Below, piece by piece: positions 40,797 through 56,042 of a stretch of 64,000 nucleotides of DNA. Source of the stretch: Acidiphilium sp. (lineage in GTDB: Bacteria; Pseudomonadota; Alphaproteobacteria; Acetobacterales; Acetobacteraceae); assembly GCA_028688905.1 (NCBI GenBank), contig JAQTXH010000001.1, positions 973,770 to 1,037,769 of the forward strand, read 5' to 3'. The stretch's first letter is position 1; every line of letters begins with the position of its first letter. Under the pieces are notes generated by a model. The model made no database searches. It saw nothing but the letters and a program-made list of their open reading frames with translations, and was not told the origin of the DNA. The translations under genes were made by a program, and so were the position numbers.

Positions 40797-41305
40797 GTTG
40801 TTCTGCCAACCCTGCGAAGGGTTCTCTCCATAGTCAGTTGCGGAACGAAACTCGATATGTCCCCGCCTAGCTTGGCGATTTCCTTGACGAAGCGCGATGA
40901 GATGAACTGATGCCGTTCGCTCGCCATCAAAAAAATAGTCTCGATCGAATGATCGAGACGGGCATTCATACCGGCCATCTGGAACTCGTAGTCGAAGTCC
41001 GAGACCGCACGCAAGCCACGCACGATCACATGCGCACCAATTTCCTGCGCGAAGCCGATCAACAGCGTCTCGAAAGGGCGGACCTCAATGATGGTGCCGG
41101 TGCGGGCGGCGATCGGTTTGACCTCGGCGCACACGAGTTCAACCCGCTCGTCGCTTGGGAACAGCGGCCCCTTGCCGACGTTGCCCGCCACCCCGATCAC
41201 CAGCCTGGCGCAAAGCGTTGCGGCGCGGTTGATGATGTCGAGATGTCCGTTGGTGATCGGGTCGAACGTGCCGGGGTATAACCCGGTCAGCGCCCGCTCA
41301 CGCAC
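40793..41305 (-). CDS. coaD: Phosphopantetheine adenylyltransferase
   Basis: Penultimate step of CoA synthesis. Nucleotidyltransferase TxGH motif in '[18 protein letters not shown]', '[18 protein letters not shown]', and '[15 protein letters not shown]'. Start taken as GTG 41305 (about 170 residues, fitting the family), overlapping the gyrA stop by 8 nt. An upstream ATG at 41347 would add 14 residues inside gyrA. Confidence 0.95.
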
Positions 41306-44060
41306 TGGTTGCGCCCTCGGGGGGGGCTTGGTCGCCACCGTTATCATTGGTCCCCTCGTCGGTGCCGTCGTCGATTACCGGGAACACGCTGGTCACCTGC
41401 TCGTCCTTGTCGACCCGCACCAGTGTTACCCCCATCGCCTGCCGGCCAGTGATCCGCACCTGATCGATCGGCGCGCGGATCAGCTTGCCCTGATCGGTGA
41501 CCAGCATGATGTCATCTCCCGCGCGCACCGGGAAGCTCGCGACGACCGCTTTTCCGTTGCGGGCGGCAAGCGCGATGTTGGTGATCCCCTGCCCGCCTCT
41601 GCCGGTGACGCGATATTCATAGGCCGAGGAGCGCTTGCCGAAGCCGCCCGTCGTGACCGTAAGCAGCATGTCCTCGGATTCGGTGAGTTGAGCGGTTCGT
41701 TCCGGTGCCAAAGTGATATCGGCGGCGACTTCGTCAGACTCGACCGCCTCCAATTCGGCCTCCTCGCCGTTTCGCCGTTGGGCGGCTGCAAGTTTGAGAT
41801 AGGCGGCGCGCTCCTCGACGGTTGCCTCGACATGGCGGAGCACCGAGAGCGAGATCACTTCGTCGTCCTTGCCCAGCCGGATGCCGCGCACGCCGTTGGA
41901 ATCCCGCCCGGCAAACACCCGCAGCGTGTCATCGGTAATCTGGAACCGGATGCAGCGGGCGAGACGGGTAGCAAGGAAAACATCGTCGCCCTCGCGGCAG
42001 GTGGCGACGCCGACCAGATGGTCGCCCTCGTCCAGCTTCATCGCGATCAGGCCAGAGGACCGCACGTTGCGGAAATCGGCCAGCCGGTTGCGCCGGACAT
42101 TGCCCGAGGCGGTGGCGAACACCAGGTGCAGATCGTTCCACAGGCTTTCATCCTGCGGCAACGGCAGCACGGTGGTGACAGCATCGCCGTTGAGTTCGGG
42201 CAGGATGTTCACGATCGCACGGCCCTTAGCGGCGGGAGCGGATTCCGGCAGGCGCCAGACTTTCTCGCGAAACACCTTGCCGCCCTGGCTGAAAAACAGC
42301 ACGAACTGATGGGTGTGGGCGTTGAAACTGCGGGTGATCACATCATCGCCACGCATCGAAGCCGCCGCCCTGCCCCGCCCGCCGCGATTCTGCGCCCGAA
42401 AGGCTTCCAGTGGTGTGCGCTTGATGAAACCATCGCGCGTCATGGTGACGACCATCTGCCCTGGCTCGATCAGACTCTCGTCATCCTGATCGGCGACGTT
42501 GTCCTCGATGCTGGTCCGCCGCGGCGAGCCGATTCGCGCACACACTGCGATCAGTTCCTCGCGCATCACTTCCAGCCGGCGCGGTCGTGAACCGATAATC
42601 GCGAGCAGTTCACCGATCTTTTCGCCGACCTCGCGCAATTCCGCCTGGATCTTGTCGCGCTCCAGTCCGGTCAGGCGTTGCAGGCGCAGTTCCAATATGC
42701 CGCGCGCCTGCGCTTCGGTGAGACGGACGGTGCCGGACTCGGTGACCTGATTGCCATGATCATCGATCAGGGCAAGCAGCGGCAGCACATCGCCGGCCGG
42801 CCAGTCCCGCGCCATCAGGCCCACGCGCGCAGCCGCGGCATCAGGGGCGGCGCGGATCAGGGCGATCACCGCATCGATATTGGCGACTGCGATGCCGAGA
42901 CCGACCAAAAGATGCGCCCGGTCACGCGCCTTGTTCAGGTCGAACCGGGCGCGGCGGAGGATGACATCCTCGCGGAAGGTGATGAAGCAGTCGAGCGCGT
43001 CGCGCAGACCCAACTGGCGCGGCCGTCCGCCATCGAGTGCCAGCATGTTGATGGCAAACCCGGCCTGCAACTGGGTGAAGCGATAGAGCTGGTTCAGAAC
43101 GACCTCGGGTGTGGCGTCGCGCTTGAGTTCGACCACCATGCGCATGCCATCGCGGTCGCTCTCGTCACGCAGATCGGAAATGCCTTCGACTTCCTTGTTG
43201 CGCACCAGATCGGCAATGCGTTCGAGCAGGGTGGCCTTGTTCACCTGATACGGCAGTTCGCTGACCACGATGGCAAGACGGTCCTTGCGGATCTCCTCGA
43301 TCGTGGCGCGTGCCCGCACCACGATCGACCCACGCCCGGTTTCAAATGCACTGCGGATGCCGGCACGGCCAAGAATCATCGCCCCCGTGGGGAAATCCGG
43401 GCCGGGAACGATCTTCATCAGATCATCGAGCGTCGCCTCGGGATGTCCCAGCAGATGCAGCGTGGCGTCGATGATCTCGGTCGGGTTGTGCGGTGGAATA
43501 TTGGTGGCCATGCCGACCGCGATGCCGTTGGCACCATTGACCAGCAGGTTGGGATAGGACGCCGGCAGCACGCGGGGTTCGGTATCGGATTCATCGTAGG
43601 TGGGCTGGAAATCGACGGTATCGCGGTCGATATCGGTGAGGAGCGCCATCGCGGCGTCGGCGAGGCGCGCTTCGGTATAACGCATCGCCGCCGGCGGATC
43701 GCCATCGACGGAGCCGAAATTGCCCTGGCCGTCGATCAGCGGCACCCGCATCGAAAAACTCTGGGCCATGCGCACCGCGGCGTCATAAATCGCGGAATCG
43801 CCGTGCGGATGGTATTTACCCATGACCTCGCCGACCATGCGGGCGGATTTCCGGTAGGGTTTGTCTGGCGTGTTGCCCGATTCGGCCATCGCATACAAAA
43901 TGCGTCGATGCACGGGTTTCAGCCCGTCCCGGGCGTCTGGCAGGGCGCGCGAAACGATGACGGACATCGCATAATCGAGGTAGGAGCGGCGCATCTCCTG
44001 CTCGATGGTCACGGGTGAAAGCCCGCGCGGGCCTTCGGTCTGGTCGGTCTGATCGGTCAT
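41298..44060 (-). CDS. gyrA: DNA gyrase subunit A
   Basis: 920 residues. Catalytic Tyr in '[12 protein letters not shown]', QRDR '[17 protein letters not shown]' with Ser and Asp at the Ser83/Asp87 equivalents (fluoroquinolone-sensitive type), and C-terminal beta-pinwheel blades including the GyrA box 'QNRGGRGR'. The C-terminal tail is extended and acidic. It is the core gene directly upstream of, and divergent from, the sMMO cluster, so the cluster sits at a gyrA flank. Confidence 0.97.
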
Positions 44061-44130
44061 GAAGATATCATACCATTAGTGCTGCGTCGCTGCGAGAGAC
44101 CCCGGGATGCAGCATTCCGCGTGGTGCAGA

Positions 44131-44170
44131 TTGTCCCGATCTCATGAGTGTCACGCTTCATCTGGGACAA
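44131..44170. promoter_or_regulatory. Inverted repeat upstream of the sMMO promoter (candidate activator site)
   Basis: TTGTCCC (44131-44137) and GGGACAA (44164-44170), 26 nt apart, centred ~70 bp upstream of the -24 element, the usual location for a sigma-54 enhancer-binding protein. A second small repeat GGGA/TCCC lies at 44187-44199. The binding protein is unknown. Confidence 0.5.
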
Positions 44171-44219: not shown

Positions 44220-44235
44220 TGGCACGGTTTTTGCT
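44220..44235 (+). promoter_or_regulatory. Sigma-54 (-24/-12) promoter of the sMMO operon
   Basis: TGGCAC-GGTTT-TTGCT is a full match to TGGCAC-N5-TTGCW with GG to GC spacing of 10 nt. Predicted start near 44246, giving a leader of about 417 nt before mmoX. Known precedent: mmoX of methanotrophs and bmoX of Thauera are sigma-54 dependent. The interval 44061-44662 otherwise holds A+T-rich leader sequence without a supported gene. Confidence 0.85.
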
Positions 44236-44662: not shown

Positions 44663-46240
44663 ATGGCGTTAAGCGCCGCTACTACCGCAGCAACTGAAGC
44701 TTTAAAGGTCAATCGTGCTCCTACGGGTGTGAATCCGCAGGAAGTGCATCGTTGGATGCAAAGCTTCAACTGGGACTTCGCCAAAAATCGGACCAAGTAT
44801 CCGACGAAATACCACATGGCGAATGATACCAAGGAACAGTTCAAGATCATCGCCAAAGAATATGCCCGGATGGAAGCCATTAAGGATGAACGGCAATTCG
44901 GGACGCTTCTCGATGGCCTTTCGCGCCTTGGTGCCGGAAATCGGATGCATCCGAAGTGGGGCGAGACTATGAAGGTCGCCTCGAATTTTCTGGAGGTCGG
45001 CGAATACAACGCGATTGCAGCCGCTGCCATGCTTTGGGACTCGGCGACGGCTTCGGAGCAGAAGAACGGATATCTCGCACAGGTGATGGACGAAATTCGC
45101 CATACCCACCAGTGCGCGTTCATCAACCACTTCTACTCCAAGCACTATCACGATCCGGCGGGCCACAACGATGCGCGTCGGACTCGCGCAATCGGGCCGC
45201 TCTGGAAGGGCATGAAGCGCGTGTTCGCTGATGGCTTCATTTCAGGTGACGCCGTTGAGTGCTCGGTCAATCTGCAGCTGGTCGGCGAGGCTTGCTTTAC
45301 CAACCCGCTTATCGTTGCCGTTACCGAATGGGCCTCGGCCAATGGCGACGAAATCACGCCGAGCGTCTTCCTCTCCATCGAAACCGACGAACTGCGTCAC
45401 ATGGCGAACGGCTACCAGACGGTAGTGTCGATTGCCCATGATCCGGCTTCGTCCAAATACCTGAACACCGACTTGAACAACGCGTTCTGGACCCAGCAGA
45501 AGTACTTCACGCCGGTTCTTGGTATGCTTTTCGAATATGGTTCGAAGTATAAGGTCGAGCCTTGGGTTAAGACCTGGAACCGTTGGGTGTACGAGGATTG
45601 GGGTGGAATCTGGATCGGCCGCCTCGGCAAATTCGGCGTGCAGTCACCTCCCTCGCTGAAAGACGCCAAGCAGGATGCCTATTGGGCGCATCACGATCTG
45701 TTCCTGCTTGCTTATGCGCTGTGGCCAACCGGCTTCTTCCGTCTGGCTCTGCCGGACGAGGAAGAGATGCAGTGGTTCGAAGCCAACTATCCGGGTTGGT
45801 ATGACCACTACGGCAAGATCCTGAACGAGTGGCGTGCCCTTGGCTGCGAAGATCCGAGCAGCAAGTTCATCCCGATCCAGTGGCTCGAGAAGAATGGTCA
45901 CAAGGTCTACGTCGATCGTGTCTCGCAGGTGCCTTTCTGCCCGAGCCTTGCAAAGAGCACGAACACCTTGCGCATCCACGAATACAACAACCAGTTGCAT
46001 TCGTTCAGCGATGACTGGGGCGAACGCATGTGGCTTACGGAGCCGGAACGCTATGAATGCCAGAGTGTGTTCGAGCAGTACGCGGGCCGCGAAATTTCCG
46101 AAGTCGTTGTCGAAGGGCACGGCGTGCGTGCCGACGGCAAGACGCTGATCGGACAACCTCACGTGCGGGGCGACAAGCTCTGGACGGTCGAGGATCTCCG
46201 GGCAGCCGGTTGCGTATTCAGCGATCCTTTGCGGAATTGA
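44663..46240 (+). CDS. mmoX: Soluble methane monooxygenase hydroxylase alpha subunit
   Basis: 525 residues; catalytic subunit of the (alpha-beta-gamma)2 hydroxylase that oxidises methane to methanol at a diiron centre. The start at 44663, behind AAAGGAG, gives residue numbers that coincide with Methylococcus MmoX: ligands Glu114, Glu144, His147, Glu209, Glu243 and His246. Gate/cavity residues Leu110, Asn116, Cys151 and Phe282 are all of sMMO type. Butane monooxygenases instead have Gly, Thr and Leu at the last three (from published BMO mutagenesis, as recalled). One departure is Phe324 where sMMO has Tyr. The longer frame from 44561 adds 34 residues unlike the family. First gene of a sigma-54 driven operon. 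Confidence 0.98.
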   Translation: MALSAATTAATEALKVNRAPTGVNPQEVHRWMQSFNWDFAKNRTKYPTKYHMANDTKEQFKIIAKEYARMEAIKDERQFGTLLDGLSRLGAGNRMHPKWGETMKVASNFLEVGEYNAIAAAAMLWDSATASEQKNGYLAQVMDEIRHTHQCAFINHFYSKHYHDPAGHNDARRTRAIGPLWKGMKRVFADGFISGDAVECSVNLQLVGEACFTNPLIVAVTEWASANGDEITPSVFLSIETDELRHMANGYQTVVSIAHDPASSKYLNTDLNNAFWTQQKYFTPVLGMLFEYGSKYKVEPWVKTWNRWVYEDWGGIWIGRLGKFGVQSPPSLKDAKQDAYWAHHDLFLLAYALWPTGFFRLALPDEEEMQWFEANYPGWYDHYGKILNEWRALGCEDPSSKFIPIQWLEKNGHKVYVDRVSQVPFCPSLAKSTNTLRIHEYNNQLHSFSDDWGERMWLTEPERYECQSVFEQYAGREISEVVVEGHGVRADGKTLIGQPHVRGDKLWTVEDLRAAGCVFSDPLRN

Positions 46241-46249
46241 TCTAAATAG

Positions 46250-46276
46250 GCGGGGTGGAGCTTGCCTTCACCCCGC
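46250..46276 (+). terminator. Hairpin between mmoX and mmoY
   Basis: GCGGGGTG (46250-46257) and CACCCCGC (46269-46276), a perfect 8-bp G+C stem with an 11-nt loop followed by TACTTTT. It begins 10 nt after the mmoX stop. It may be a partial terminator or a 3'-stabilising structure giving excess mmoX mRNA. A TATAAC (46310-46315) before mmoY could be a weak -10; no convincing -35 is seen. Confidence 0.7.
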
Positions 46277-46353
46277 TACTTTTCGCTCATACCATTAACA
46301 TACGGCCCATATAACTGGTCGAGGTGACTGGGGAGGGGCCGCAGGAGGAAACG

Positions 46354-47535
46354 ATGGCACAAGAAACCACGCGTACAACGAGGCGCGGCCTGCTCGATCC
46401 GGAAAGAGCAGCCGCCATTCTTAAGGTGATCCCGCCGAACGCACTCGATACGCAGCGGCGGATGGGTTACTTCGTCGAACCGCGCTGGAAGCGGCTCAGC
46501 GAATACGAGGCGCTGACCTGCTACAGCCAGCCGACACCGGACTGGATTCCTGGTGGCCTCGATTGGGGTGATTGGACCCAGAAATTCCATGGCGGGCGTC
46601 CCTCCTGGGGCAACGAACTTACCGAACTCCGGAGTTCGGATTGGCATAAACACCGCGATCCGGCGCGCCGCTGGCATCACCCGTACGTCAAGAATAAATC
46701 TGAGGAAGCTGGTTACACGCAACGCTTTCTTCAGGGGTATTCCGCCGAAGGACAAATCCGCACCATGGATCCGTTCTGGCGCGATGAGATGATAAGCAAG
46801 TACTGGGGCGCGATGATCTTCAATGAATACGGGATGTTCAACGCGCATTCATCGGTGGTCCGCGATTGCCTTGGTGACACAATCCGTAGTTCCGCGACCT
46901 TCGCCGCCTTTGATAAAAACGATAACGCCCAGATGATCCAGATGGAGCGCGTTTTTATCTCGAAGGTTCTTTCAGGATTCCCGGAATCAACCGACGAGCC
47001 GAAACTCGTATGGACAACCGATCCCGTCTATCGCGGTGCTCGGGTGCTGATTGAGGAACTGTGGCAGGGTATTCAGGACTTCAATGAGATTCTCTGGTCC
47101 ACCCACTGCGTTTACGATCCGCTGTTCGGCCAGTTCGTCCGCCGGGAGTTCTTTTTGCGCCTTGCCCCGTTCTTTGGCGACTCGCTGACCCCGTTCTTCA
47201 TCAATCAGACGCAGACCTATTTCCAGACCACTCGCGACGCGATGTCGGATCTCTATTTGACGACCCTGTGTGACGATATGCAGTTTTCGTCTCTTAACCG
47301 CCGTTTCTTGCGGCTCTGGACTGACAAGTGGCTTAGCCAGACCGTGACGGCATTGAAGGATTTCATGGGGCTGTATGATAAAGTCCCGGTAATCGCCGGC
47401 GTGACGGATGAGGCTTCGGTGAAGGAAGCGCTGACCCGCGTGTTCTCTGACTGGGTGCATGACTATGTCGATAAAATCGATGGCAAAGTCGACACCAAGA
47501 AAATAATCGACCTCATCATGACCGGTTACAAATAG
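46354..47535 (+). CDS. mmoY: Soluble methane monooxygenase hydroxylase beta subunit
   Basis: 393 residues (Methylococcus MmoY 389 as recalled). Structural subunit of the hydroxylase without iron ligands. Family blocks: 'MGYFVEPRWKRLSEYEALT', 'GGLDWGDWTQKFHGGRPSWG', 'RFLQGYSAEGQIRTMDP', 'LFGQFVRREFFLRLAP' and 'TPFFINQTQTYFQTTRD'. Start at 46354 behind GGAGGAA; an in-frame codon at 46324 has no support. Its stop overlaps the ribosome-binding site of mmoB (AGGAGA at 47534-47539). Confidence 0.97.
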   Translation: MAQETTRTTRRGLLDPERAAAILKVIPPNALDTQRRMGYFVEPRWKRLSEYEALTCYSQPTPDWIPGGLDWGDWTQKFHGGRPSWGNELTELRSSDWHKHRDPARRWHHPYVKNKSEEAGYTQRFLQGYSAEGQIRTMDPFWRDEMISKYWGAMIFNEYGMFNAHSSVVRDCLGDTIRSSATFAAFDKNDNAQMIQMERVFISKVLSGFPESTDEPKLVWTTDPVYRGARVLIEELWQGIQDFNEILWSTHCVYDPLFGQFVRREFFLRLAPFFGDSLTPFFINQTQTYFQTTRDAMSDLYLTTLCDDMQFSSLNRRFLRLWTDKWLSQTVTALKDFMGLYDKVPVIAGVTDEASVKEALTRVFSDWVHDYVDKIDGKVDTKKIIDLIMTGYK

Positions 47536-47546
47536 GAGATCGTTTC

Positions 47547-47957
47547 GTGACAAAAAATGCATATAACTACGGCATCATGGAGAAAACCGGCAAAGCCTTC
47601 GCCGACGAATTTTTTGCCGAAGAGAACCAGGTCGTCCATGAATCCAACGCGATCGTGTTGGTTCTCATGCAAAGCGACGAGATCGATACGATCGTTGAGG
47701 AAATGATCCTCAAAGAGGGCAAAAAGCACAATCCATCGATCACTGTGGAAGATCGCAGTGGGTTCTGGTGGATCAAGGCCGACAATAAAATTGAGGTCGA
47801 TTGCGCTGAAGCCAGCGAAATGCTTGGAAAGACCTATAGTGTTTACGACTTCTTGGTTAACGTCTCGTCAACCATAGGTCGTGCCTACACGATCGGTGAT
47901 AAGTTCGTGATTACTTCCGAGTTAATGGGACTTGACGTTAAACTCAAAGATATCTGA
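47547..47957 (+). CDS. mmoB: Methane monooxygenase regulatory (coupling) protein B
   Basis: 136 residues. MmoB docks on the hydroxylase, opens the substrate path and raises O2 reactivity. Conserved blocks: 'GKAFADEFFAEENQVVHESN', 'VNVSSTIGRAYTIGDKF' and 'ITSELMGLDVKL'. GTG start with AGGAGA 7 nt upstream. The N-terminal tail, which orders on hydroxylase binding, is present but a few residues shorter than in Methylococcus. Confidence 0.97.
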   Translation: MTKNAYNYGIMEKTGKAFADEFFAEENQVVHESNAIVLVLMQSDEIDTIVEEMILKEGKKHNPSITVEDRSGFWWIKADNKIEVDCAEASEMLGKTYSVYDFLVNVSSTIGRAYTIGDKFVITSELMGLDVKLKDI

Positions 47958-47977
47958 TTTCAAGGGAGCTGACTTCC

Positions 47978-48499
47978 ATGGCAAACTATCCAATTCACGA
48001 AAACCCAACGCGCGATGAGTGGGCTGCGAAAATTGACCGGCTGACCACACTGAAAGACGCGTCAAAGGCGATCAAAGACTTTCGCAAAGACAACACGTCA
48101 CCTTTCCGCAAGAACTATGATCTGGACATTGATTACCTCTTTATCGAGTGCAAGCTTGAAGAGAAGCTGGCCGACATGAAGGGGCAACACATGAAGGACG
48201 ACGATCTGCTCACCAAAACGGCCGACGGCGAATGCCCGGAGGAGATCTCGAATGCCTGGATCGCCAAGATGAAAAGCGCGAAAGATAAATTCGTCGCAGA
48301 AAAAGTCTTGATCGAATTCCGGCAGACCTATAAGCCGCCGGTGATGCCCGTCAATGCGTTCCTTCGTGCGGATGCGACTCTCGGCTCACTCCTGATGGAA
48401 GTCCGTAATACCGATTATTACGGAACGACGCTCGGGGAACTGCGCAAGCAGCGTGGCGTTCGGGTTGTCCACCTACAGGATGGATTGGCTACGGCATAA
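47978..48499 (+). CDS. mmoZ: Soluble methane monooxygenase hydroxylase gamma subunit
   Basis: 173 residues. Small helical subunit that completes the hydroxylase dimer. Conserved with the family: 'HENPTRDEWAAKIDRLTTL', 'FRQTYKPPVMPVNAFL', and the C-terminal 'LGELRKQRGVRVVHLQ'. AAGGGAG precedes the ATG, 20 nt after mmoB. Confidence 0.96.
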   Translation: MANYPIHENPTRDEWAAKIDRLTTLKDASKAIKDFRKDNTSPFRKNYDLDIDYLFIECKLEEKLADMKGQHMKDDDLLTKTADGECPEEISNAWIAKMKSAKDKFVAEKVLIEFRQTYKPPVMPVNAFLRADATLGSLLMEVRNTDYYGTTLGELRKQRGVRVVHLQDGLATA

Positions 48500-48564
48500 C
48501 GACATCGAACCGGGTGCGGTGCTCAGTTTGGCCGCGCCCGGGCCTTTGCTTGGAGGGGAGACCG

Positions 48565-48909
48565 ATGAAACAACCAGATCCAGTCGCAGAGATGGAAGTA
48601 TTTTTAAAGGGAATGGACGGCGAAGAAGTAGACGTGCTTGCCGACAATACCAGCGTTATTGAAATTGCTGCTGGGGAAGTTGTTGGTGAGCGTATCGAGT
48701 TGCACAATGGGGTGATATATCAGGCCTTCGCTGAAGATCTTGGTTTCATGTGGCGCTGGGAAATTCACCGTAGTGGTAAGCCAGTACAATCGGGCTGCTC
48801 ACTGTCCGAAAGATCGGCGCGTGAGGCGGTCGACCATGTGTTGGCCTTTTTTCAAAACCTGGCTACCGCGCAAGCTGAGGCCGAGAGCGATGACCCACGT
48901 GACGATTAA
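48565..48909 (+). CDS. mmoD: sMMO accessory protein MmoD
   Basis: 114 residues. MmoD binds the hydroxylase and blocks MmoB, and has a proposed role in the copper switch or diiron assembly. The recognisable core is 'FAEDLGFMWRWEIHRSG' followed by 'SGCSLSERSAREAVDHVLAFF'. N-terminal ~50 residues and the acidic tail are divergent. ATG 48565 follows GGAGGGGAG. A 238-nt gap without a gene separates it from mmoC. Confidence 0.93.
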   Translation: MKQPDPVAEMEVFLKGMDGEEVDVLADNTSVIEIAAGEVVGERIELHNGVIYQAFAEDLGFMWRWEIHRSGKPVQSGCSLSERSAREAVDHVLAFFQNLATAQAEAESDDPRDD

Positions 48910-49147
48910 CAACTTAGCAATGCGGTGCAGTTCACGGGTAACTTGAAGCACTAAGTAGGTAACAACTCTCCCTCCCTTTTTGAAGGATGTGGAACGTATG
49001 CGGGGTTTGCTGCCAGTTTTGGACGTTAAAATCCATAAATTGGCCACATTTTCCTAAAAATCCGTTCGGAATTGGCTTCTGGGGTAGAGGTTGCGCGGTT
49101 ACCGGGGCGTGGTGCCAAAACAAAATGAAAATTTGGGAAGGGAACTA

Positions 49148-50188
49148 ATGTACACTGTAGAAGCGATTACTGAAGACGATAAGAAGGTGGAGTTTGAGTG
49201 CGGACCGAATGAAGATCTGATTACGGCCGCCTTGCGTAATAACGTCATTTTGCTTTCGTCCTGCCGGGAGGGTAGCTGTGCTACCTGCAAGGCGGAATGT
49301 ATTGAAGGCGAGTTCGAACTTTCTAACTGCAGTGTGCAAGCGCTTCCTTCAAATGAGGAGGAAGACGGCTTCGTTCTAATGTGTGGAATGTATCCCCGCA
49401 GCGACATCGTGGTGCGGCTTCCCTATGTTTATGAGCGAATCTCATTCGGTAAACAAAATGTGGACTGGACGGGGGACGTTGTTGCCTGTGATCGTTTGTC
49501 CTCAAATGTGTTTCGGCTCGTGATCCAATGCAAAGATCCGGACACCAACGCGCCGTTGCCGATGCCGTTCACCGCCGGCCAGTACGTCAATATTGAAATA
49601 CCTGGCACGGGGATCTCTCGTTCGTTCTCCATGGCCAATCCGCCCGGGAGCACGGATCTCGAATTCCTTATTCGTATGCTGCCTACGGGACGCTTTTCGG
49701 AATTCCTGGCAAACGGGGTCGCTGTCGGGCAGGCCATTAAATTCCGCGGACCGACCGGGATTTTCGCATTGCGCGAGAATGGCCTTCGCCCACGGTATTT
49801 TATTGCGGGAGGTACGGGCCTTTCACCGGTGCTGTCCATGATCCGACGGATGAGGGATGTGAGAGATCCTCACCCGGTGAAACTATTCTTTGGTGTGACG
49901 CATCAGCATGAATTGTTTTACGAAGAGGAACTTGAGGAACTACGGCGTTCGATGCCGATGCCGAATATGCTTGTCAATATCGCAGTGATGAATCCATCTG
50001 ACACCTGGCACGGGTTCAAAGGAACGGTCGTTGACCTCCTTCGGACTGAACTGAGTCAAAGCAACGAGAAGCCGGATATATATATGTGCGGGCCGCCGGC
50101 GATGATCGAAGCGACAGTGGCGGCGGCCGTTGCCGCCGAGGTTCCCGATGGAAGCATCTACTTCGAAAAATTCCTTGCGTCCGGGTGA
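49148..50188 (+). CDS. mmoC: Methane monooxygenase reductase (component C)
   Basis: 346 residues; passes electrons from NADH to the hydroxylase. N-terminal [2Fe-2S] plant-type ferredoxin domain with Cys39, Cys44, Cys47 and Cys79 (SSCREGSCATC...MC). FAD domain with 'SRSFSMANPP' and the NAD domain with 'YFIAGGTGLSPVLSMIR' and 'YMCGPPAMIEATV'. Start at 49148 behind GGAAGGGA matches family length (348 as recalled). Upstream, 48910-49147 shows no gene. Confidence 0.97.
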   Translation: MYTVEAITEDDKKVEFECGPNEDLITAALRNNVILLSSCREGSCATCKAECIEGEFELSNCSVQALPSNEEEDGFVLMCGMYPRSDIVVRLPYVYERISFGKQNVDWTGDVVACDRLSSNVFRLVIQCKDPDTNAPLPMPFTAGQYVNIEIPGTGISRSFSMANPPGSTDLEFLIRMLPTGRFSEFLANGVAVGQAIKFRGPTGIFALRENGLRPRYFIAGGTGLSPVLSMIRRMRDVRDPHPVKLFFGVTHQHELFYEEELEELRRSMPMPNMLVNIAVMNPSDTWHGFKGTVVDLLRTELSQSNEKPDIYMCGPPAMIEATVAAAVAAEVPDGSIYFEKFLASG

Positions 50189-50279
50189 AACAGGATGAAT
50201 AACAGATCGTGTGAGGCTTTGGTTGCTGAAATGGACGGCCAACAGTAGGCTTCACACGATAAATTCGGGGGTACTGGCA

Positions 50280-50615
50280 ATGAATGAGGATGACCAAGAC
50301 TTCTTGAGAGAAATGGCCAAAAGCTTGGATGCCACCTTGTATGAACTGAACGCACGAGAAGAGGAACTGCTTGATGTCCTTGGTGACGAGCGGGCCGAAG
50401 ATTTGCAGAGCTATTATGACCGCAGGCTTGACCCCGAGGAAGCTGAGCAGTTCCGTGAAATGTTGGATTATGATGATCGCCAGATGATTTCAGTGTGGAA
50501 CAGGCTGTTGCGTGTGAAGGAACAACGCTTGCTGGTTGGACGGCTCCTGATGCGGAATATCATAATAGAAACAGTGTCGGGAATTAAGGCTGCGTCCAGC
50601 GACCGTCCGACCTGA
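50280..50615 (+). CDS. Unrecognised 111-residue protein between mmoC and mmoG
   Basis: Starts at ATG 50280 (MNEDDQDFLREMAKSLD...). The protein is acidic in the first half (many Asp/Glu) and basic later, and appears entirely helical; a coiled coil at ~24-65 (ELNAREEELLDVLGDE) is likely. No Cys, signal peptide or TM segment. SD is weak (GGGGG 11 nt upstream). It is not a component of the classical mmoXYBZDC set. Its site in the cluster, same strand, between reductase and chaperonin, suggests an accessory or assembly role. That is inference only. Confidence 0.7.
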   Translation: MNEDDQDFLREMAKSLDATLYELNAREEELLDVLGDERAEDLQSYYDRRLDPEEAEQFREMLDYDDRQMISVWNRLLRVKEQRLLVGRLLMRNIIIETVSGIKAASSDRPT

Positions 50616-50682
50616 GCGAGCAGAACGACAAAAACAAGCATTAACCCGGGATAACGCCACCGGGAATGCAAATGGAGGAATT

Positions 50683-52404
50683 ATGGCCCGTGCTATCATC
50701 TTCGGGAACTCAGCCCGACGGCAGTTGATGAGCGGTATCGACCGATTGGCCGATGTCGTTGGCGTTACCTATGGGCCGCGAGGTCGTAGTGTTCTCATCC
50801 AGCATCGTACGGCTGGCCTTCCACCCATCGCAACGCGCGACGGCGCTTTGGTCACCCAATATTTCGAGCAGGATGGCTTAGCTGCAAATATCGGTCTCGC
50901 CCTCGTACGCCAGGTGGTGAATTCCGTGGTAAAGGAGGTGGGCGATGGTACTTCCACCTGCGTTGTCCTCACACGCTACATTGCCTCGGCGGTCATCAAG
51001 GGGATGGCGGCTGGCTTGAACCCGCGTGAAATTCGCATAGGCATGAATCGGGCCGTTGATATGGCCGTCGCCAATCTGGAGCAGCTGGCCAAACGCGACT
51101 GCGAACCGGCGATGATCGCGGCCATTGCCGCTATGGCGGGGCATGGTGACGAAGAAATCGGCAGACTTGTCGCCGACGCAGTCGCGCACTCCGGCCCCAC
51201 CGGTCCGGTAGCGATCGAACTGGGCACTGGATTCACGGACGAAATAGAACTTGTCGAAGGAATTAAATGGGAACAGGGCTACCTCTCGCCCTATTTCATA
51301 ACCGACAAGGATCGGCGCGTTGCCGAATTGGATGATCCGTATATTCTCATCTACGATCGTGTGATCCACGAGTTCGACGAGTTCCTGCCCGTGCTGGAAC
51401 TTGTTCGCCAGCAGAACCGGCCACTGCTCATTGTGGCCGAGAATGTTAGTGAAGCGGCACTTCCCGGCGTTCTTCTCAATCATATACGGCGTACCCTGCA
51501 AGCCGTCGCTGTGCGGTCACCGGGTCATGGCGACGCCAAATTCGCCCGTCTGGACGACCTCGCCGCTCTGACGGGAGGCCGGAGCCTGCTGGAATGCCAG
51601 GGGGACAGTCTTGCGGGAATCACGCTCGCCGATTTAGGACAGGCCCGAAAAGTCGTAATAACCGATGATTCCACCACAATTACAGGTGCCAAAGGTGATC
51701 CTTTGGTGATCAAGGAGCGTCTGACGAGCCTGCAATTTCAACTTGATGGTCTGCGGAATGGCGATCTTTCCAAAGGTTCAGCATTGGGCCGTGTCCACGA
51801 CGCCGATGAATTGGAAGATCGCATCAGGTCTCTGTCCGCGCGGTTTGCGGTCATCAAGATTGGTGGCCGAAACGAGATTATCGCGAAGGAGCGGCTCCAG
51901 TTGGTCTCCAATGCGCATGCCGCGGTTTTGAATGCGCTCGCCGATGGTGTGATCCCGGGCGGAGGGGTTGGCCTGCTGCACAGTGCCGAAGGGCTTGATG
52001 CTTTGGATAGCGATAGCTTGGGAGAGCGCTATGGCATTGATACTATTCGCCGTGCGCTTGAGGAGCCGCTTCGGAAGATCGCGGAGACTTTAGGTCTTGA
52101 AGCACCCGAGGTGCTGTTCACGGCGCGCCGATCGGAAAATCGTTCCTGGGGCCTCGATGCTCGCACTGGCCTCTACGGCGACTTATATGAGATGGGCATC
52201 ATCGATTCCCTGCGTTGCATCAGCTCTACTTTGCAGCAGGCCGCCAGCACGGCCGGTATGCTGATGACGACAGAGTGCGTGGTGGCGACTTTGCCTCCAG
52301 ACGATCCTTCGTTCGGCTTCACTGACGAGTGGGCTGCAGCAACGCGCGAGGATCCGCGGGATAATTTGCCCCAAAAGAAGGTAAAAGTGGGGACGGACAC
52401 ATGA
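50683..52404 (+). CDS. mmoG: sMMO-associated GroEL-like chaperonin MmoG
   Basis: 573 residues, a divergent HSP60. ATP site motifs 'GVTYGPRGRSVLIQ', 'TRDG' (GroEL Asp52 equivalent) and 'VGDGTSTCVVLTRYI' (Asp87 region) are retained. The catalytic Asp398 equivalent is Asn (in LVSNAHAAVLNALADG). The C-terminus ends '...DEWAAATREDPRDN...' like other MmoG/BmoG, with no GGM repeats. MmoG is thought to fold the hydroxylase and to help the sigma-54 activator MmoR. GGAGG precedes the ATG. Confidence 0.94.
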   Translation: MARAIIFGNSARRQLMSGIDRLADVVGVTYGPRGRSVLIQHRTAGLPPIATRDGALVTQYFEQDGLAANIGLALVRQVVNSVVKEVGDGTSTCVVLTRYIASAVIKGMAAGLNPREIRIGMNRAVDMAVANLEQLAKRDCEPAMIAAIAAMAGHGDEEIGRLVADAVAHSGPTGPVAIELGTGFTDEIELVEGIKWEQGYLSPYFITDKDRRVAELDDPYILIYDRVIHEFDEFLPVLELVRQQNRPLLIVAENVSEAALPGVLLNHIRRTLQAVAVRSPGHGDAKFARLDDLAALTGGRSLLECQGDSLAGITLADLGQARKVVITDDSTTITGAKGDPLVIKERLTSLQFQLDGLRNGDLSKGSALGRVHDADELEDRIRSLSARFAVIKIGGRNEIIAKERLQLVSNAHAAVLNALADGVIPGGGVGLLHSAEGLDALDSDSLGERYGIDTIRRALEEPLRKIAETLGLEAPEVLFTARRSENRSWGLDARTGLYGDLYEMGIIDSLRCISSTLQQAASTAGMLMTTECVVATLPPDDPSFGFTDEWAAATREDPRDNLPQKKVKVGTDT

Positions 52405-52582: not shown

Positions 52583-53308
52583 TCAAGAGCCGCCCATGGG
52601 AAGCAGCGGACCAGAGAACACGATGGGGGTGTCGGGCTGACCTGTGGGTGAACCGCCTGGCGGTTCCACCGTGACGGCCATCAGGATTTCGGGTTTGCGC
52701 ATGTCCGCAGGCATGTCGTTGCGCGGCAGCGCGGTGCGGCGGGGTTCGACGAAGCCCACCGGAATCGGCTTCTCCCCACCGGCTACCGCCCAAAGCTGCC
52801 AGACTTTGCCGGCGGGCGGCGCAATAGGGGCGACGGGGGCGATGCTCATTGCCCCGTCACTGCGCAATGCGACGGTAAACATCGGGCCGGATGCGTTTGC
52901 AAGCACGGCCACCATGTGCGGTGCCGCCGACGGTTGCGGGCGCAACACCACCAAAGCGATGGCAGCGGCTGCTGCCAAGGCACCGAAGCCTCGCCAAACC
53001 GCGATATTGTCCCACCAGATTTCGCGCCAGGACGAACGGCGGTGCCATGCAATGCGCGGCAACGGGGTGGCCGCGGCGTCACGCGGTGAAAGGATGCGCT
53101 CAATTTCTTGCCAGACGGTGTGCGACGGTTCGACTGGTGGGATAGCGAGCGACAACGGCAACAAACGAACTTCCCAGGCGGCAACCTCAAGGCTCAATGC
53201 CGGGTCAGTCGCGAGGTCGGCCTCGAAATCGCACCGTTCCTGCCCGCGCAGCAGGCCAAGCACGTAAAGCCCGGCGCGATCCGGGGTCGGGGTGATGTGA
53301 TCACTCAT
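52583..53308 (-). CDS. RskA-type anti-sigma factor
   Basis: 241 residues. N-terminal cytosolic zinc-less anti-sigma part with 'AGLYVLGLLRGQERCDFEADL' and 'LPLSLAIPPVEPSHTVWQEIE', one TM segment (~residues 107-123), and a periplasmic RskA domain ('MFTVALRSDGAMSIAP', 'GKVWQLWAVAGGEKPIPVGF'). Overlaps the ECF sigma gene stop by 4 nt, so the pair is coupled. It would hold the sigma factor inactive until an envelope signal triggers release. Signal unknown. Confidence 0.9.
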   Translation of the reverse strand: MSDHITPTPDRAGLYVLGLLRGQERCDFEADLATDPALSLEVAAWEVRLLPLSLAIPPVEPSHTVWQEIERILSPRDAAATPLPRIAWHRRSSWREIWWDNIAVWRGFGALAAAAAIALVVLRPQPSAAPHMVAVLANASGPMFTVALRSDGAMSIAPVAPIAPPAGKVWQLWAVAGGEKPIPVGFVEPRRTALPRNDMPADMRKPEILMAVTVEPPGGSPTGQPDTPIVFSGPLLPMGGS

Positions 53309-53826
53309 CGTTCAAGGCACTTCTTTAGGGCATCAAGCGCTCGGACGATCCAGCTTTTGATCGTGCCGAGCGGTGTTTTGGTGAGATCGGCGATCTCGCT
53401 GTGCGAATACCCCTCGACATAGGAGAGGACTACCGAACGACGCCAGTTTTCCGGCAATTCACCGATGCAAGAGGAAAGGGCGCGGCTGTCTTCAATATCG
53501 ACCGGCATATCGGCCGCAACGTCGGGCAGTTCGTCGGTGCCGGTGTGGCGGCGCTCGGTTTCCAGCCGATCAAGCGCGCGGTAGCGCAGAATGCCGATCA
53601 TCCAGGCTTTCGGCGAGCCGCGTGACGTGTCGAACCGATCCGCATTGCGCCAGATTTGCAGAAACGCGTCCTGTAGGGTTTCCTCCGCATGGGGGCGATT
53701 GCGCAGCAGCCTCAAGGCCACCCCGAGCATCGTCGGTGCCATGGCGTCATACAAAGCGCGCAACGCCAGCGGGTCACGTTCAGCGCATCGCCGCAGGAGT
53801 TGGGTAAGGTCATCCTCGGCAGCCAT
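53305..53826 (-). CDS. ECF RNA polymerase sigma factor (SigK-like)
   Basis: About 173 residues from ATG 53826 (MAAEDDLTQLLRRCAERD...). Sigma region 2 'TLQDAFLQIWRNADRFD' and region 4 'VVLSYVEGYSHSEIADLTKTPLGTIKSW' (in parts). Typical SigK group partner of RskA. Other starts (GTG 53847, or ATGs up to 53976) are possible. Likely targets include its own operon and perhaps the neighbouring DUF3034/haemoglobin/HiPIP genes; this is inference. Confidence 0.9.
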   Translation of the reverse strand: MAAEDDLTQLLRRCAERDPLALRALYDAMAPTMLGVALRLLRNRPHAEETLQDAFLQIWRNADRFDTSRGSPKAWMIGILRYRALDRLETERRHTGTDELPDVAADMPVDIEDSRALSSCIGELPENWRRSVVLSYVEGYSHSEIADLTKTPLGTIKSWIVRALDALKKCLER

Positions 53827-54282
53827 TCCGGCTACATTTTCCGTCACCCAGTTGAGTTCCGTGCCATCGAACATCTTGTAGGTGACTACGCGCACCGAGG
53901 CAATCCGGATGCGGGATCGCCGTTCCTGTGTCTGTTTATAGAGTTTGTACATCTTGGATGGCTGTGGACTGAACATTTATTCGGAAGGCCTGCCTTTGTT
54001 CCTGGGCCACGACAAAAAAGTTGCCTTGTATGCATCCAAAGTGGCAGCGGCACGGTAACTCAAATGACCGCAGACTGAATATGTAGCGACCCAGGCTCGT
54101 AGGTTTGGTTGCGATGGTATCATTGTTATCGCGAATATTAAATAAAATTGTAATATTAAAAAATCGTAAACTGCAAAATATCGTATCATAAAAAATTAAA
54201 AATTCTACTCAATAATTAAACCATAAATTAAACCATAAATTAAACGGAGCCGACTCAAAAAATCTACAATAGGAGGGACATA
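53827..54282. other. Intergenic region, A+T-rich, divergent promoters
   Basis: Separates the sigma/anti-sigma operon (-) from the DUF3034 operon (+). The right half is very A+T-rich and contains three copies of an ATAAATTAAAC(C) motif at about 54222-54245. AGGAGGG stands 6 nt before the DUF3034 ATG. No sigma-54 match or RNA gene seen. Confidence 0.5.
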
Positions 54283-55260
54283 ATGGGACTAATTCCGATC
54301 AAACAACGTCTAAAATTTTCGTCTGCCATCGGTAGCATCGCCCTGATGGTGGCTGCACTGACAATATCGGCACCATATGCGCAAGCCAGGAGTGGTATGT
54401 TCGACGAGGGCGGGCTTACCGCCACCGGTGGCGTAACCTCAATCAGCGGCACGGCCGGTGGTGGCTTGAACCCCCTCGCTTTCATCGGTGGCTATGAAAC
54501 CGACACTCAAATTGGTGGCACGGCGTTTTACACACATTTAATTGCCGGCAGTTTCACGATGAATGCAGGTGGTGCCTTGATCGGCATCGATAATCGTTTT
54601 GAGATTTCGGTTGCGAGACAAAATTTCAATCTTGGATCGCCGGGAGCGAGCTTGGGTCTAGGGTCCGATTTCAACCTTCGCCAGAATATTTTCAGTGCGA
54701 AGCTGCGTCTTTTCGGCAATGCGGTGTATGACCAAAATTCGCTTGAACCTGTCGTGTCGGTGGGCGTTCAATATCACGAGAATATCAGCCCAGCCTATCC
54801 TGGCACCGGGCGCAACATCGTCGATATTCTCGGCTCCCATCCGGATGGGACGACCTACTACATCGTCGCAACCAAATTGTGGCTCGACGGTTTGTTAGGA
54901 CACTACACCGTGTTGAGCGGCGGCCTGCGCTTGACCAACTCCAACTACAACGGTTTGCTGGGCTTCGGTGGCACCAATGATGCGGGTGTGTATAAATCGG
55001 GCTATCATGTCGAACCATTTGTTACCACCGCCTATTTCTTGAACCGTCAAATTGCGGTTGGCTACGAGTATCGGGGAAATCCGCATTTCAATGTTGGCGG
55101 ACCCGCGAATTTTAGCTCGACCAGTGCATGGCAAGATGCGTTTATCGCTTACTTTCCCACGAAAAACATTTCGATCACCGCTGCTTATGTCAACCTAGGT
55201 ACCGTTTTGAACACAAAAAATTCGAACGGCCTCTACTTGTCGCTTACCGGTTACTTCTGA
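54283..55260 (+). CDS. DUF3034 outer-membrane beta-barrel protein
   Basis: 325 residues with a signal peptide (cleavage after AQA, ~residue 35) and a barrel-like mature part ending in Phe (LSLTGYF). DUF3034 blocks: 'GLTATGGVTSISGTAGGGLNPLAFIGGYET', 'GGTAFYTHLIAGSFTM', 'LFGNAVYDQNSLEPVVSVGVQYH' and 'AFIAYFPTKNISITAAYVNLG' (in parts). DUF3034 genes often sit beside a group 1 truncated haemoglobin, as here; function is unknown. Strong SD AGGAGGG. Its A+T content resembles the nearby sMMO cluster more than the core genes. Confidence 0.85.
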   Translation: MGLIPIKQRLKFSSAIGSIALMVAALTISAPYAQARSGMFDEGGLTATGGVTSISGTAGGGLNPLAFIGGYETDTQIGGTAFYTHLIAGSFTMNAGGALIGIDNRFEISVARQNFNLGSPGASLGLGSDFNLRQNIFSAKLRLFGNAVYDQNSLEPVVSVGVQYHENISPAYPGTGRNIVDILGSHPDGTTYYIVATKLWLDGLLGHYTVLSGGLRLTNSNYNGLLGFGGTNDAGVYKSGYHVEPFVTTAYFLNRQIAVGYEYRGNPHFNVGGPANFSSTSAWQDAFIAYFPTKNISITAAYVNLGTVLNTKNSNGLYLSLTGYF

Positions 55261-55285
55261 TCAAAAATATCGAGGAATGAACTTC

Positions 55286-55720
55286 ATGAACAAGTTACAC
55301 GTTGCACTCGTCGCGAGTGCCATAGCGGTGGCGATTGGTGCTGCAACCGTGGTGCCCGCTCGGGCCGCCACAAGTTACTATCAGGATTTCGGGGGCAAAC
55401 CGGGCATTACCGTCCTGATTGACCAGTTTGTCGGCAATGTTGCCGCCGACAAGCGGATCAATTTCTATTTTGCCCACACCAATATTCCGGCACTGAAGGC
55501 AGCGCTGGTGGAACAAGTATGCAACCTGGAAGGAGGGCCGTGCCCGTTCGCCATGAGCATGCCCAAAATCCACAAGCACATGGGTGTCACACAAAACGCG
55601 TTCAACGCGCTCGCCGAGGACATGATCCGCGCGATGGATCACGAGCAGATTTCAACGGCGGCACAGAATAATCTGCTCGCCAAACTAGCCGCGATGGAAC
55701 CGCAAATCGTCACGAGGTAG
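55286..55720 (+). CDS. Exported group 1 truncated haemoglobin
   Basis: 144 residues: Sec signal (MNKLHVALVASAIAVAIG...ARA) then a 2/2 globin with 'YYQDFGGKPGITVLIDQFV', 'FFYFA'-type CD corner (INFYFAHTN) and the proximal His in 'KIHKHMGVTQNAFNAL'. Periplasmic location is unusual for trHbN; O2 or NO handling is plausible. Two start ATGs (55277, 55286) exist; 55286 has better SD spacing (GAGGA, 8 nt). It is 16-25 nt after the DUF3034 gene. Confidence 0.88.
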   Translation: MNKLHVALVASAIAVAIGAATVVPARAATSYYQDFGGKPGITVLIDQFVGNVAADKRINFYFAHTNIPALKAALVEQVCNLEGGPCPFAMSMPKIHKHMGVTQNAFNALAEDMIRAMDHEQISTAAQNNLLAKLAAMEPQIVTR

Positions 55721-55772
55721 TGTAGCGAACATTGCGAGTGAACCAATGGCGACTGAACCAATGGAGATCGGC

Positions 55773-56042
55773 ATGGCTGACAACGGCATCAATCGCCGGG
55801 CATATCTCAAGGCCGCAATCATCGGGACGGCGGGTTCGGTGTTCGTGCTGACCGCACTGCGTAGGGCGCAGGCATCAAGCAAGGCGACCAGAGTCTCGGC
55901 TGGTTATATCGGACATCCGGCGTCTGACGGGTCGAAATGTTCGACGTGTGCGAACTATATTTCCGCCGGTTCAAAGTGCGAACAGGTGGCGGGTATCGTT
56001 TCCCCGAACGGGTTTTGTAACTTTTATACGCCCAGGGGATAG
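55773..56042 (+). CDS. High-potential iron-sulfur protein (HiPIP)
   Basis: 89 residues: twin-Arg leader (INRRAYLKAAIIG...AQA) and a small mature domain with four Cys in HiPIP order: CSTC, then SKCEQVAG and NGFCNFY. HiPIPs are periplasmic electron carriers, mostly in phototrophs and some acidophiles. ATG 55773 with GGAG 7 nt upstream is preferred over ATG 55746. It may cotranscribe with DUF3034 and trHb. Confidence 0.9.
   Translation: MADNGINRRAYLKAAIIGTAGSVFVLTALRRAQASSKATRVSAGYIGHPASDGSKCSTCANYISAGSKCEQVAGIVSPNGFCNFYTPRG

Follow-up and report, generated by a model that had tools for sequence, protein, structure and literature searches.

We analyzed a 64,000-nucleotide stretch of an Acidiphilium sp. 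genome (hereafter the window; positions 973770–1037769 of contig C10) and found a complete operon for a soluble methane monooxygenase (sMMO) with a methane-type active site in a host of the family Acetobacteraceae. The genes mmoX-Y-B-Z-D-C-(orf)-mmoG form a row of eight full-length open genes on the plus strand at 44663–52404, in the order that an earlier note, made from the sequence alone, had described. With mmoX, Y, B, Z, D and C all full length within one operon, the system is an sMMO of the methane clade of soluble diiron monooxygenase (SDIMO) group III. The account we favor, with a probability of roughly 0.72, is that a methylotrophic host, whose own genes would complete a route from methane to CO2 fixation, acquired the operon horizontally, and that the operon lost its regulator gene mmoR and came under xoxF-linked control. 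The account is built on gene content, active-site residues, trees, a promoter box and the lack of a detectable mmoR. It is not the first sMMO in the family; new are the presence of methane- and butane-type operons together, a route through XoxF, glutathione and the Calvin–Benson–Bassham (CBB) cycle without detectable fae, and the apparent loss of mmoR beside a xoxF-like promoter element.

The identity of the enzyme was established from MmoX. Its best solved relatives were seven sMMO hydroxylase alpha chains, which we take to be Methylosinus and Methylococcus chains, matched over the full length with more than 1000 bits; structures of toluene and phenol hydroxylases reached at most 70 bits. All six diiron ligands are present (E114, E144, H147, E209, E243 and H246 in Methylococcus numbering) and, together with N116, C151 and F282, are identical to those of Methylococcus, Methylosinus and Methylocella, as the earlier reading of the residues had it. 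The protein lacks the G116, T151 and L282 of butane monooxygenase (BMO) and falls outside the BMO clade. In a tree with 83 rows (80 of the 90 loci found, plus a second copy from locus L045 and two proteins from this genome), it was nested among the MmoX of methanotrophs, within alphaproteobacterial sequences, and its placement in the sMMO clade and not in the butane/propane clade confirmed a true sMMO.

Within this clade, the window protein grouped with Methyloceanibacter and Methylocella (support 99/95), with Skermanella, locus L013 and the Rhodopila metagenome-assembled genomes (MAGs) as the sister group (83/78). MmoX is 84–87% identical in Methyloceanibacter methanicus, Skermanella aerolata and two Rhodopila MAGs, and the list of sMMO carriers in the earlier note, limited to Methylococcaceae, Methylocystaceae and Beijerinckiaceae, was too short. 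A tree of six concatenated operon proteins (22 rows, L036 being represented by two of the six) placed the window operon beside Skermanella and Rhodopila (94/95, not starred). A single clade of the window and Rhodopila was not rejected for MmoX in the approximately unbiased (AU) test (P = 0.34) and was borderline for the operon (P = 0.052); a single gain in Acetobacteraceae was thus neither shown nor rejected by the topology tests. The MmoX survey also turned up a Methylophilaceae MAG (P-RSF-NP-02) in which a single contig carries four copies, including a tandem pair (L045, 10001–11644 and 12038–13627; L036 and L037). A third clade (L070–L072; Xanthobacter AM3/AM5 and Methylocella tundrae isolate 2) takes a position in the tree between sMMO and BMO, and the two members checked (L070 and L072) mix N116, T151 and F282 in their active site.

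The host genome comprises 3,409,192 bases in 26 contigs and is estimated to be 99.99% complete with 1.89% contamination. The gyrA gene lies about 600 bp from mmoX, and its product is 88–93% identical to its counterparts in three same-genus genomes, 75% to that of a Rhodopila MAG and 72–74% to those of four other family members, falling to 57–60% for Skermanella, Methylocystis, Methylocella, Methyloceanibacter and Xanthobacter. These identities, and a same-family MmoX locus (G479) whose sequence is identical to a part of L009 from an uncultured Rhodopila sp. of the Acetobacteraceae, settle the family; the GyrA comparison upheld the earlier view of a host outside the known methanotroph families. 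Two MAGs labelled Rhodospirillales (L068 and L069) carry BMO-type operons; their GyrA is 57–59% identical to that of the window over most of its length, with one 121-residue fragment at 79%, and they are therefore not close to the window's family.

True MmoX is rare among the relatives, being found at E ≤ 1e-150 in 2 of 397 same-family genomes (this one and G479). At the looser limit of E ≤ 0.001, 25 of 195 relatives gave a match, counting this genome, and the best match outside it reached 214 bits and 32% identity. We infer such weak matches to be distant propane-type enzymes, and the counts warn that a MmoX-like match in this family mostly denotes a distant enzyme. MmoX was absent from all 12 same-genus genomes searched, of which some are only 78–88% complete. 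Because of this absence and a GC content of 54% in the operon against 61 and 63% in its flanks, horizontal gain is the likely and simplest reading. Only 66% of the residues of the six operon proteins, taken jointly, are identical to the nearest tree row, and so no recent donor is visible. Of the alternatives raised earlier, an undescribed methane oxidizer or a horizontally gained sMMO, the second holds up well, while novelty for the family does not: Acetobacteraceae MAGs with mmoX are already described in the available part of a published study (PMC10654671).

The window itself contains no methanol dehydrogenase, as had been noted, but elsewhere the genome encodes two XoxF proteins and a third enzyme of the ethanol type. 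The genome search proposed in the earlier note recovered XoxF, Gfa/FrmA and a cbb operon. Contig C18 holds, in a row, xoxF, a MoxJ/XoxJ-like gene slightly below its model cut-off, a cytochrome c gene, gfa, frmA and a TonB receptor gene; the second xoxF is on C10. Both XoxF proteins had XoxF as their closest solved match and, read by eye, keep the D-Y-D motif, presumably the lanthanide signature. The genome also contains pqqC, FdsABG-type formate dehydrogenase genes on C11 and, on the same contig, an operon of fbp, prk, fba, cbbL, cbbS, cbbX and rpe, in which cbbL was recognized by PF00016 and cbbS was named from its translation. By gene presence, the set expected of an aerobic methanotroph is complete: methanol dehydrogenase, formaldehyde and formate oxidation, and carbon assimilation. 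We did not find fae in this genome, in any of the seven same-genus genomes searched or in Skermanella; the Rhodopila MAGs and Methylocella do have it. The TonB-dependent receptor that ends the xoxF-gfa-frmA cluster (L138, 15317–17440) shows distant similarity to PqqU (542 bits of a 1200-bit cut-off) and possibly serves the uptake of lanthanides or pyrroloquinoline quinone (PQQ).

The siblings suggest that much of this route is older than the operon. XoxF orthologues (84–92% identical) occurred in 7 of 12 same-genus genomes, RuBisCO in six of the seven tested and pqqC likewise in six of seven. As these genes are common among the siblings, the host was probably methylotrophic before it acquired sMMO; since many siblings carry the methanol and CO2-fixation genes without sMMO, it appears that an already resident methylotroph obtained the operon late. 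MmoXYZ with MmoB and MmoC are predicted to convert methane to methanol, which the resident XoxF would oxidize to formaldehyde and Gfa/FrmA to formate; FdsABG would then yield NADH along with CO2, which would be fixed through the cbb operon. MmoD, the small orf product and MmoG probably help assembly. The substrates and growth on methane are, at this point, what the gene set predicts.

The earlier note called the operon intact, which is correct for the genes present, but did not remark that the mmoR of its relatives is missing. A sigma-54 activator gene adjoins the sMMO operon in 13 of 13 loci (L007–L019), placed between mmoC and mmoG in Methylocella, Methyloceanibacter, the Rhodopila MAGs, Skermanella, L013 and L019; Methylococcus (L020) showed no adjoining activator with the same query. 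According to the available part of PMC5874634, MmoR is the sole regulator in the M. silvestris operon, and other methanotrophs have homologues close to their mmo operons. In the window, no mmoR lies between the end of mmoC (50188) and the start of the following gene (50280), leaving the operon without the linked activator that is usual for such systems though not part of the enzyme. A Methylocella MmoR query matched only two activators in the genome at E ≤ 1e-60, with 273 and 243 bits. The same query gave 545–1212 bits for nine MmoR orthologues (those of L011, L014 and L018 were left out of this scoring), 386 bits over one 327-residue stretch in L019 and 290 bits for the Thauera activator. In a tree with long branches between groups, both activators fell outside the MmoR clade and joined sibling activators that neighbor either xoxF or ethanol-type dehydrogenases; the better match lies on C26, and its sibling orthologues stand beside ethanol-type dehydrogenase genes. 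Given these scores and placements, an mmoR orthologue was not detected in the genome, within the limits of a draft assembly, and the operon seems, as far as its sequence tells, to have lost its own mmoR.

The region upstream of mmoX offers a possible replacement. The sigma-54 pattern TGGCAC-N5-TTGCW has one perfect match in the window (0.06 expected), and the box agrees with the core of the consensus for mmoX given in the available part of PMC5874634. The pattern CAGAKTGTCMC, whose letters were derived only from four siblings (G003, G006, G010 and G011), stands at a like place in sibling xoxF promoters and has a single match in the window, at 44127, 93 bp 5' of the box (0.10 expected per 64 kb). 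An exact inverted repeat, TTGTCCC-N26-GGGACAA, spans 44131–44170. Among 186 loci, CAGAKTGTCMC was found in 19: four are copies of the window site, 12, from six siblings, are in the neighborhood of xoxF or its activator (repeats included, four having been fetched by the longer pattern) and three lie elsewhere. The longer pattern, CAGANTGTCMC-N(8–18)-TGTCAC, occurs twice in this genome, 5' of mmoX and 5' of xoxF, and once each in four siblings, directly 5' of xoxF in three and at a contig end in G012; reversed, it occurred in none of 17 genomes. The candidate activator (L138, 7548–9668) is encoded divergently from xoxF and has GAF, sigma-54 AAA+ and Fis domains. A TGTATA-type MmoR site was dropped as a general rule, as only 19 of 67 upstream regions contained at least one; sibling propane-type loci carry, by eye, TGTCGC-like half-sites, a different letter set.

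Because mmoR was undetected, the sigma-54 box is perfect and the upstream element matches sibling xoxF promoters, we suggest that the operon, after shedding mmoR, may have been captured by the xoxF regulon of its host. Transcription would be sigma-54 driven, and the activator divergent from xoxF, possibly methanol sensing, would act on mmo through the shared upstream element, so that one resident protein would switch on methane and methanol oxidation. We put forward this switch of activator tentatively, at a little below even odds. If true, capture would be a short route from methylotroph to methanotroph, the gain of one operon and the retargeting of a promoter, and would bring the question of how methylotrophs turn into methanotrophs down to a single promoter and a single regulator that can be tested.

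It is also conceivable, although we would sooner bet against it, that another resident sigma-54 activator drives mmo, for example that on C26, the best MmoR match of the genome, and that the xoxF-like element is a chance resemblance. Chance does not easily account for the pattern: CAGAKTGTCMC, defined from sibling xoxF promoters only, is expected about 0.001 times in the 602-bp upstream region (by proportional scaling); the three half-sites TGTCCC, TGTCAC and GGGACA within 45 bp were reached by 5 of 20,000 shuffles of the intergenic region, and the cluster did not recur in the rest of the 304 kb scanned in this genome; and of the 67 upstream regions in which a box was scored, that of the window alone has at least two TGTCMC-type half-sites in the 170 bp 5' of the box.

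Several observations nevertheless weigh against our account. The longer pattern was composed after both sites had been seen, its half-sites are spaced 17 bp apart at one site and 21 bp at the other, and it is missing in three of the seven siblings with a XoxF orthologue (G004, G007 and G010), which also favors a different activator. The same holds for a free local alignment of the mmoX and xoxF upstream regions, which was not significant: its best score of 12.0 was reached by 124 of 2,000 block shuffles, and other operons reached 13.0. One CAGAKTGTCMC site occurs elsewhere in the scanned stretches of this genome (L136). As to the origin of the operon, the MmoX-only tree, with Methylocella and Methyloceanibacter as neighbors, conflicts with the operon tree, with Skermanella and Rhodopila. 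An empty site beside gyrA was not found in three siblings; at the blastn level these share only gyrA with the window, 14–16 kb upstream being unmatched, and thus no insertion boundary is defined. Lastly, the presence of sMMO genes is not proof of growth on methane.

The last point bears on an alternative in which the sMMO-type enzyme serves mainly for short alkanes such as ethane and propane, or for co-oxidation, and not for methane growth. The genome contains a second operon (C18:36800–44534), an intact bmoX-Y-B-Z-(two small orfs)-C-orf-bmoG, followed by prpE-, prpD-, prpC- and prpB-like genes. Its BmoX is 64% identical to MmoX, grouped with Thauera butanivorans BMO (100/99) and has A116, T151 and L282 at the active-site positions. 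The operon has a perfect sigma-54 box (L003, 16441–16456) and, in the stretch of C18 read, no linked activator of the bmoR type; the genome has no third MmoX relative at E ≤ 0.001. With the prp genes, the operon would allow use of propane or odd-chain alkanes via propionate. Seven of 12 same-genus genomes carry distant MmoX relatives, read as propane type, and together with the BMO operon and prp genes they indicate that the lineage probably lives on short alkanes. The separate butane-type operon already fills that role, however, and the window enzyme has N116, C151 and F282, lies within the methanotroph clade and is accompanied by a route from methanol to CO2 fixation. We therefore consider a mainly short-alkane role for the window enzyme unlikely and retain methane as its predicted substrate. 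Contamination of the assembly by an operon from a wrong genome, to which the deviating GC content and the 26-contig draft might point, is very improbable, as mmoX lies next to a gyrA of this genus on a 1.3-Mb contig, the contamination estimate is low and the upstream region bears the element of this genus's xoxF promoters.

Features of the window and of contig C18, with the basis of each assignment (aa, amino acids)
Feature	Position	Strand	Basis or remark
gyrA	41298..44060	-	chromosomal anchor of the operon
Putative activator-binding region	44127..44170	+	CAGATTGTCCC (44127–44137), TGTCAC, inverted repeat; function predicted
Sigma-54 -24/-12 promoter	44220..44235	+	TGGCACGGTTTTTGCT; sole perfect match in the window
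mmoX, hydroxylase alpha subunit, 525 aa	44663..46240	+	ATG start; structure match, tree, active-site residues
mmoY, hydroxylase beta subunit, 393 aa	46354..47535	+	NF045802 above cut-off
mmoB, regulatory protein, 136 aa from GTG	47547..47957	+	PF02406; NF045804 below cut-off
mmoZ, hydroxylase gamma subunit, 173 aa	47978..48499	+	NF045805 above cut-off; PF02964
mmoD, sMMO-binding protein, 114 aa	48565..48909	+	TIGR04550 above cut-off (scanned from 48559)
mmoC, reductase, 346 aa	49148..50188	+	NF045803 above cut-off (scanned from 49151)
Small helical protein, 111 aa	50280..50615	+	kept just 5' of the GroEL-like gene in many sMMO/BMO operons
mmoG, GroEL-like chaperonin, 573 aa	50683..52404	+	PF00118
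Genes 3' of the C18 bmo operon			prpE-like, 710 of 955-bit cut-off; prpD-like, 837 of 950; prpC and prpB above cut-off
RamB-like gene among the C18 prp genes		opposite	436 of 700 bits

The protein families agree with the assignments for the operon, MmoD and the small orf having no match in the Pfam scan and MmoX none in the NCBIfam scan. MmoB scored 233 of 245 bits against NF045804 in a form scanned without its first 10 residues, and MmoG is 40–56% identical to the MmoG of the sMMO operons scanned. Relatives of the small orf encode 74–116 residues (starts set here) and were found in L004, L007–L012, L014, L015, L017–L021, L068 and L074–L076, in several of which mmoR lies directly 5'; the locus scan did not detect the small orf in L013, L016, L070 or L072. 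Across 17 aligned proteins a G, two R and an M are invariant. The window protein has an all-helical AlphaFold model (pLDDT, a per-residue confidence score, of 90), with no fold match in the PDB at E ≤ 0.001, no Pfam match above cut-off (four relatives included) and, for the window protein, no NCBIfam match; we regard it as a candidate partner of MmoG/BmoG.

On the 3' side of the operon, an extracytoplasmic function (ECF) sigma factor and anti-sigma-like pair, named by eye, lies on the minus strand at 52583–53976. It is followed by a GC-poor block (53%) at 54283–56042 that encodes a DUF3034 protein, a truncated globin and a HiPIP-like protein; the signal-like N terminus of the globin and the HiPIP-like identity were assigned by eye. 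These three genes were absent beside the sMMO/BMO operons in the 22 loci scanned from other genomes.

Among known systems, the C18 operon resembles the BMO of Thauera butanivorans, with which it shares the clade and T151 and L282; it differs in having A116 instead of G116, in the prp-type genes that follow and in the lack of a bmoR-type neighbor. The combination of sMMO and a BMO-like operon in one genome recalls Methylocella sp. PC1 and PC4, for which the available part of PMC6778391 gives sMMO, propane monooxygenase (PrMO) and bmoXYBZDCG. Unlike these strains, our genome has no further MmoX relative, and its BMO-type protein belongs to the Thauera clade and not to the one that contains the second-type protein found in Methylocella tundrae isolate 2 (L072).

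Within the family, the landfill MAGs STB_66 and STC_13 carry mmoX and a predicted sMMO and are likened here by description only, not by sequence; as far as the accessible text of PMC10654671 goes, several genomes in its family trees have complete genes for particulate methane monooxygenase (pMMO) and/or sMMO, many near-complete sMMO sets lack mmoZ, and no analysis of regulation is given. An mmoXCYB set has been reported in Acidiphilium, in the available part of PMC7677001. Some published mmo annotations in this family may be propane-type look-alikes.

The sMMO of Methylocella silvestris and M. tundrae (mmoXYBZDC-mmoR-orf-mmoG) has the same gene content, the same active site (checked in L012) and MmoX 86–87% identical to ours, but the window lacks mmoR, and its host combines XoxF, glutathione and CBB genes with no fae found, whereas M. 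silvestris TVC has fae. The Rhodopila MAGs B12_bin-2215 and I3b_bin-088, the latter of the same family, have complete sMMO operons with MmoX 87% identical and are neighbors in the operon tree; they differ in keeping mmoR, in having fae and in genome sizes of 6.7–7.1 Mb, and the AU tests leave a common origin with the window operon not established. In I3b_bin-088 (L009, G196:C30:18787–20367), a XoxF-like PQQ methanol dehydrogenase, 57% identical to XoxF here, lies directly 3' of mmoG. If the capture is right, sMMO and methanol dehydrogenase would be coupled by position in that genome and by promoter in this one.

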